Shown one piece after another: positions 635 to 945 of a DNA stretch of 64,000 bases. The notes under the pieces were generated by a model. It saw nothing but the letters and a program-made list of their open reading frames with translations, did no database searches and had not been told where the DNA came from. A program made the position numbers and the translations under genes. The first letter of the stretch is position 1, and every line of letters starts with the position of its first letter. The stretch covers positions 1 to 64,000 of the forward strand of contig JAGCVK010000049.1 of assembly GCA_017962415.1 (NCBI GenBank). Direction: 5' to 3'. The stretch comes from Treponema sp. (GTDB lineage Bacteria > Spirochaetota > Spirochaetia > Treponematales > Treponemataceae).

Positions 635-648
635 AGGTATACTTCCTT

Positions 649-713
649 CCGCAGAATCATCGCGGATTAAAGAGATTTTTTAGAACGTAATAACCACCGA
701 CGAATCATCTCGG
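649..713 (-). promoter_or_regulatory. Twin 17-nt hairpins in the purA leader
   Basis: Positions 649-665 (CCGCAGAATCATCGCGG on the plus strand) and 697-713 (CCGACGAATCATCTCGG) have the same length and the same inner block GAATCATC, flanked by 4-bp complementary arms. The two copies differ at the fourth arm position, C/G in one and A/T in the other, so pairing is kept by a compensatory change. Both lie between the predicted purA transcription start near 723 and its ATG. They could be RNA hairpins in the leader or two DNA operator half-site pairs. The function is unknown. Confidence 0.55.
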
Positions 714-729
714 CGATTTTTACTAAATC

Positions 730-758
730 AATATATCACAAAACTTGGGTTGTGTCAT
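730..758 (-). promoter_or_regulatory. Predicted sigma-70 promoter of purA
   Basis: Read on the minus strand, ATGACA (753-758) and TATATT (730-735) are separated by exactly 17 bp, and a TG two bases before the -10 box makes it an extended -10. Transcription would start near 723, giving a leader of about 90 nt. The prediction comes from sequence only. Confidence 0.6.
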
Positions 759-779: not shown

Positions 780-945
780 GTCCGGCGGTTTGATTTGCGG
801 TTTGACTTTGCTGGTGTGAGACGGGGAAGCGCCCCAAGCGTGGAGCCGCGCCGAAGGCGGCCAACGCAAGCGACCGAGCGAACGAAGTGAGCGAGGGAGT
901 GCGTAGGCTGAGCGATTAGCGAACGGCGGAAGGCGTTTTGTACAA
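780..945. repeat. GC-rich intergenic repeat, copy 1
   Basis: A GC-rich stretch sits abruptly inside very AT-rich intergenic DNA between purA and guaB. It shares ordered blocks with 4110-4262: a GGAGC..GCCGAAGG block, then short GCGAR-type units, then GGCTGA-GCG-TTAGCG followed by GGCG. An open frame crosses it on the minus strand, but its composition and lack of a ribosome site speak against a gene. It looks like a dispersed chromosomal repeat of unknown role. Confidence 0.6.

Follow-up and report, generated by a model that had tools for sequence, protein, structure and literature searches.

A tandem pair of covarying hairpins in the purA leader of a Treponema clade: a candidate cis-acting RNA element

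Introduction

Ahead of purA, the gene for adenylosuccinate synthetase, the initial annotation of a Treponema sp. contig (JAGCVK010000049.1, assembly GCA_017962415.1) noted two short hairpins with one loop sequence and suggested that they might be a bound RNA element or a twin operator. The window analysed here comprises positions 1 to 64,000 of this contig. Do these hairpins act as RNA or as DNA and, if they act as RNA, what reads their loops and to what effect?

The purA locus and its two hairpins

The purA gene is on the minus strand, where it begins at 634 and is cut off by the start of the contig, and guaB (IMP dehydrogenase) is divergent from it and begins at 1050 (Table 1). Another contig of this assembly (G000:C20:3-227) opens inside a purA fragment with 97% identity to residues 137–211, which fits a contig break in purA. 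Residues about 31–45 of the window's PurA are VVRLAGGANPGHTIVV, and most relatives seen have VVRFAGGANAGHTIVV; the motif is highly conserved, and its two changes here are possibly an assembly or sequencing error near the contig end. Between purA and guaB lies a repeat-like GC-rich stretch (window 780–940, core 875–895), whose CGAGCGAACGAAGTGAGCGAG has 11 copies in the genome at ≤2 mismatches (the reversed control has 0), and the stretch is probably a dispersed palindromic repeat. The predicted purA promoter has 10 of 12 matches and a TG before its −10 box, and it puts the predicted transcription start at about 723–724, just ahead of the first hairpin. The hairpins had been said to lie after the predicted start, and a start downstream of 649 was to count against the proposal; the predicted promoter (758–730, minus strand) is upstream of both.

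The two 17-mers lie where they had been placed (plus strand, 649–665 and 697–713, with cores at 654–661 and 702–709, 48 bp apart). Since purA is on the minus strand, the RNA carries their reverse complements: hairpin 1 (H1), CCGAGAUGAUUCGUCGG, comes first (713–697, CCGA-GAUGAUUCG-UCGG) and is followed by hairpin 2 (H2), CCGCGAUGAUUCUGCGG (665–649, CCGC-GAUGAUUCU-GCGG). The shared loop core described by the initial annotation is present, its letters having been read from the other strand, and in the RNA this core is GAUGAUUC; the compensatory change between the arms (C-G to A-U at the inner pair) is genuine. The H1 stem extends to a perfect 9 bp, G-U pairs included, and in its predicted fold a G-C and an A-U pair close a UGAU tetraloop with one 3′ bulge. 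The loop core by itself is not rare (9 occurrences in the window against 2.3 expected); the core with the G-C pair and two further pairs has a frequency of 7.6e-5 per dinucleotide-shuffled leader, and two such motifs together were found in 0 of 13,200 shuffled leaders.

Table 1. Features of the purA leader, listed from the gene outward (window positions)
Feature	Position	Strand	Evidence or detail
purA (adenylosuccinate synthetase), first 211 codons	2..634	minus	Pfam Adenylsucc_synt, E 1.7e-72
Shine-Dalgarno AGGAAG, directly 3′ of H2	642..647	minus	sequence
Hairpin 2 (H2), 5-bp stem UCCGC/GCGGA around GAUGAUUCU	648..666	minus	30 distinct sequences
Invariant H2 loop core GAUGAUUC	654..661	minus	conserved among relatives
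Pyrimidine-rich tract (about UCUCUUUAA), candidate anti-SD partner at H2 base	670..678	minus	single-sequence folding only
Hairpin 1 (H1), 9-bp stem AAUCGCCGA/UCGGUGGUU around GAUGAUUCG	692..718	minus	conserved and covarying, 28 distinct sequences
Invariant H1 loop core GAUGAUUC	702..709	minus	conserved among relatives
Predicted promoter	730..758	minus	−35 ATGACA (758–753), 17-nt spacer, extended −10 TGa-TATATT (735–730)

The hairpins covary as RNA

Comparison of the purA upstream regions of relatives, on which the proposal had been staked beforehand, found arms and loop conserved at the same place. A first covariation test of 20 hairpins from ten species gave 34 two-sided changes compared with 18 ± 3 in shuffles, and sliding this alignment by 1–3 columns lowered the paired cells from 78% to ≤46%. 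Taken by itself, H1 (28 distinct sequences) has 47 two-sided changes against 23 ± 4 in shuffles, and H2 (30 distinct sequences) has 20 against 4.3 ± 1.6; in H2, 97.6% of cells are paired and four pairs have changed on both sides. Against a background of diverging linkers and stems, the loop GAYGANUC is the same in all 64 copies, and the G-C pair one step outside the loop-closing pair is likewise invariant; the closing pair alternates among C-G, A-U and U-A, and at the base 3′ of the core U, A and G occur but C does not. When folded freely, most loops form G-C and A-U pairs that close a UGAN tetraloop with one 3′ bulge, a drawing on which covariation says nothing because these inner pairs never vary. 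Compensatory stem changes beyond those of shuffles, and a shared genomic context in many species, are the marks of a conserved structured RNA element and both are present here, so that the sequence comparison supports well the view that the pair is a cis-acting structured RNA element.

A twin DNA operator, that is, a repressor site just past the promoter and ahead of purA, would explain why H1 overlaps the predicted transcription start, the expected position of an operator, and why the core includes the palindrome GANTC. However, the arms vary across many sequences with pairing kept, G-U pairs included, as RNA does, and the position of H2 is fixed relative to the Shine-Dalgarno (SD) sequence and ATG, not to the promoter. 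Because the stem sequences vary freely as long as pairing is kept, we regard an operator as highly improbable; of the two readings offered at the outset it is the RNA element, with arms that covary across many species, that is well supported. Two other architectures were considered and rejected: a K-turn or C/D box, because by inspection the 3′ strand has no GA, and loop-loop kissing, because the H1 and H2 loop variants do not co-vary.

Distribution and specificity to purA

A PurA search of 84,980 species genomes led to 80 named loci. Near relatives (GTDB genus Treponema) keep both hairpins before purA with no visible similarity in the intervening sequence, and the pair is present in T. bryantii XBD1002, B25 and NK4A124, T. 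porcinum ATCC BAA-908, Treponema sp. JC4 and C6A8, and many rumen assemblies. Under a strict pattern, both hairpins are present in 31 of the leaders that were read, a count that includes the window's own, and at least one is present in 33; covariance-model searches found additional Treponema genomes with the tandem pair. Order- and phylum-wide scans gave no tandem pair outside the genus Treponema, and tandem pairs were found only ahead of purA. In the window's own genome the purA H1 and H2 are the only covariance-model matches below E 0.01, and the next match (E 0.098) lies inside the cheB coding sequence. A wider regulon was considered and rejected, since the covariance model gave no second gene and the other single matches read were in coding sequence or solitary (e.g., cheB). 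Downstream of purA, the principal loci read that carry the element mostly have a PGA_cap-domain lipoprotein-like gene and an HrpA/HrpB-type helicase (e.g., L069 3737–5633).

In the PurA tree the element is limited to one clade of 44 sequences, of which 33 have it, two have a contig that ends there and nine have lost it. All nine belong to a T. porcinum subclade and lack both loop motifs together, and several of them, with altered loops, retain the promoter together with either the outer H1 stem or some stem where H2 would be (e.g., L103, L104, L108 and L109). Seven label changes are needed on this tree, so repeated loss is involved; the simplest history that the sequences suggest is one origin and then loss of both loops in one subclade, as if whatever recognises them had disappeared.

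The initial annotation knew of no described purA element of this kind, and we likewise found none in Rfam or the literature searched. An Rfam 15 scan of the window's leader and a T. bryantii leader brought no family near its gathering threshold (the best weak matches were to the S15 leader, with 12.2 bits inside purA in the window and 16.3 bits in L069, versus 39.5 required), and no such element was reported in the literature searched on the purA leader, Treponema, riboswitches and RNA-binding enzymes.

Placement of the hairpins and the Shine-Dalgarno sequence

Among the relatives core 1 lies mostly 17–25 nt, usually 19–20 nt, past the −10 box, which makes H1 the predicted 5′ end of the message, and H1 is often nested in an outer GUAAAA...UUUUAC stem. 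In the leaders of L104, L108 and L131 the GATGATTC loop is gone, and an outer stem, GTAAAAA...TTTTTAC, remains where the transcript is predicted to begin; an outer stem kept without its loop suggests a separate role for it in 5′ end protection. Core 2 is mostly 25–33 nt upstream of the ATG, with H2 directly before the SD; in two genomes H2 is 59 or 116 nt ahead of the annotated ATG. The two cores are 39–138 nt apart, and some of the linkers between them hold hairpins of their own. The linkers of L069, L070 and L073 contain palindromic inserts such as GATCCCGAATCGAGTTCGGGATGACA, both hairpins being kept, and inserts of this type look like dispersed repeats inserted between H1 and H2.

In most relatives a UCUU(UUA)-type tract precedes H2 and is predicted to pair with the SD. 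The SD bases are unpaired with an average probability of 0.33, compared with 0.46 for a shuffled upstream part (Wilcoxon p = 5e-4, from related sequences that are not independent), and this occlusion, which is inferred from folding, is uneven between leaders (e.g., 0.80 unpaired in L128). Predicted pairing of the SD with the H2 lower flanks supports translational control, although it does not amount to proof.

Might the hairpins serve only mRNA stability or ribosome access, either structurally or as AUG-bearing upstream starts, with no specific partner? H1 opens at the predicted 5′ end, stems persist in relatives that have no loops, and there is an AUG inside each loop, all of which such a role would explain. 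A stability hairpin, however, needs no loop that is invariant in 64 copies, and upstream starts fit poorly with frames from the loop AUG that are not conserved, with an ACG in one H1 and with a variable loop base that occupies the central position of the second codon. An upstream open reading frame from the loop AUG was rejected on these grounds (unconserved frames, ACG in one genome and non-synonymous variation), and a partnerless role as a whole seems to us improbable.

A proposed mechanism and candidate partners

We propose, with a probability of about 0.5, that the pair acts in cis, as RNA, on purA translation by means of a trans factor at both loops, likely an RNA-binding protein. H1 would form where the transcript begins and H2 directly before the ribosome-binding site, and the factor would recognise the bulged hairpin with its GAYGANUC loop and occupy both copies. 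Its binding would stabilise H2, the lower flanks of H2 would pair over the SD, and purA translation would be turned down; H1 would be a second contact and may also shield the 5′ end of the message. Computational comparison of genomes is the source for the two covarying hairpins, for where they lie, for their presence at purA only, for the apparent single origin and for the joint loop loss; that a protein is involved, which one it is, what signal it answers and whether it raises or lowers translation we infer.

A protein partner is favoured because the hairpins are discrete, freely spaced and lost jointly. The variable core spacing is easier to reconcile with a pair of independent protein sites than with a single folded aptamer, and nine genomes with both loops gone, several of which keep a stem, are what would be expected if a trans factor had been lost; joint loop loss could instead follow a lost need for ligand sensing. 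Several candidate partners were rejected: CsrA, because the loops have no GGA and csrA is found in genomes with and without the element; RRM proteins, which are missing from the main element-bearing clade; PUR-domain proteins, which are found throughout, with and without the element; and the HrpA-type helicase near purA in many of these genomes, whose presence does not follow the element. Phosphoribosyltransferases were uninformative as candidates by presence and absence.

It is less likely, in our view, that the pair is a new minimal tandem-hairpin riboswitch class or a PurA self-binding site, in which the twice-repeated 9-nt bulged loop would sense the adenylate/guanylate branch point and control purA translation. 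As a minimal riboswitch, the hairpins would bind a purine-related metabolite in a pocket made by the single loops or by a dimer of the two, and tune SD access. The tight constraint on the 8–9 nt loop in both copies, the single metabolic gene controlled and the lack of a partner protein from the CsrA, RRM, PUR-domain and HrpA searches are in keeping with this, as is a layout like that of guanidine-II (two tetraloop-type hairpins, the second by the SD, with anti-SD pairing; PMC9300104). Yet the loop is not the ACGR of guanidine-II, the cores are 39–138 nt apart with hairpin-forming inserts in the linkers, the variants at the N position of the loop are mismatched between H1 and H2, and a purine ligand would have little room in a 9-nt loop; we judge a riboswitch unlikely.

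If PurA itself bound both hairpins, it would repress its own translation when substrates are scarce or product is high. That the element stands solely before purA and within one PurA clade agrees with such autoregulation, and metabolic enzymes that bind their own mRNA exist, for example AcnB (PMC4150767). Against it, several PurAs of the same clade have a normal sequence and have lost the element, and the literature searched gave no report of RNA binding by a bacterial PurA, which leaves self-binding decidedly unlikely in our estimation.

Significance

Structured regulatory mRNA leaders are a known kind, and the GAYGANUC motif is new in that it is not in Rfam or the literature searched. It is limited to one branch of gut and rumen Treponema, in which at least 30 related genomes keep both hairpins, and these sequences point to an undescribed RNA switch of purA, an adenine-nucleotide enzyme gene, in spirochaetes, whose post-transcriptional control seems thinly described. 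Binding of a metabolite or of PurA would make the element a new, compact sensor at the IMP branch point, and binding of a protein would reveal a sequence-specific hairpin-binding regulator. Since the element is small, is resolved to single bases and is carried by named strains (T. bryantii, T. porcinum, and Treponema spp. JC4 and C6A8), the hairpin can be used as bait for the partner.

Comparison with known systems

The guanidine-II (mini-ykkC) riboswitch has two tetraloop-type hairpins, the second of which adjoins the SD, and anti-SD pairing (PMC9300104). The purA leaders are like it in having two small hairpins with the same loop in a 5′ leader, a variable linker and SD sequestration as the proposed output, and their second hairpin is also by the SD (core 2 mostly 25–33 nt before the ATG). 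They are unlike it in that the guanidine-II loops are ACGR, whereas all 64 copies here have GAYGANUC, and in that guanidine-II controls guanidine export genes and has no bulge of this type; the purA leaders have no Rfam match. Purine riboswitches are likewise leader RNAs of purine genes, but the purA leader has neither their three-way junction nor a match to the Rfam purine family.

Among protein-bound leaders, CsrA/Rsm binds as a dimer to two hairpin loops of an mRNA leader, one of them at the SD, and requires GGA in the loop; the purA loops differ in having no GGA, and csrA occurs both with and without the element. Operators of the phage MS2 type are protein-bound short stems with one bulged base and a tetraloop at a ribosome-binding site. 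The purA hairpins resemble these in their short stem, predicted single bulged base and tetraloop, and ribosome-binding-site location, and differ in their 3′-side bulge, YGAN loop, presence in two copies and association with a chromosomal metabolic gene.
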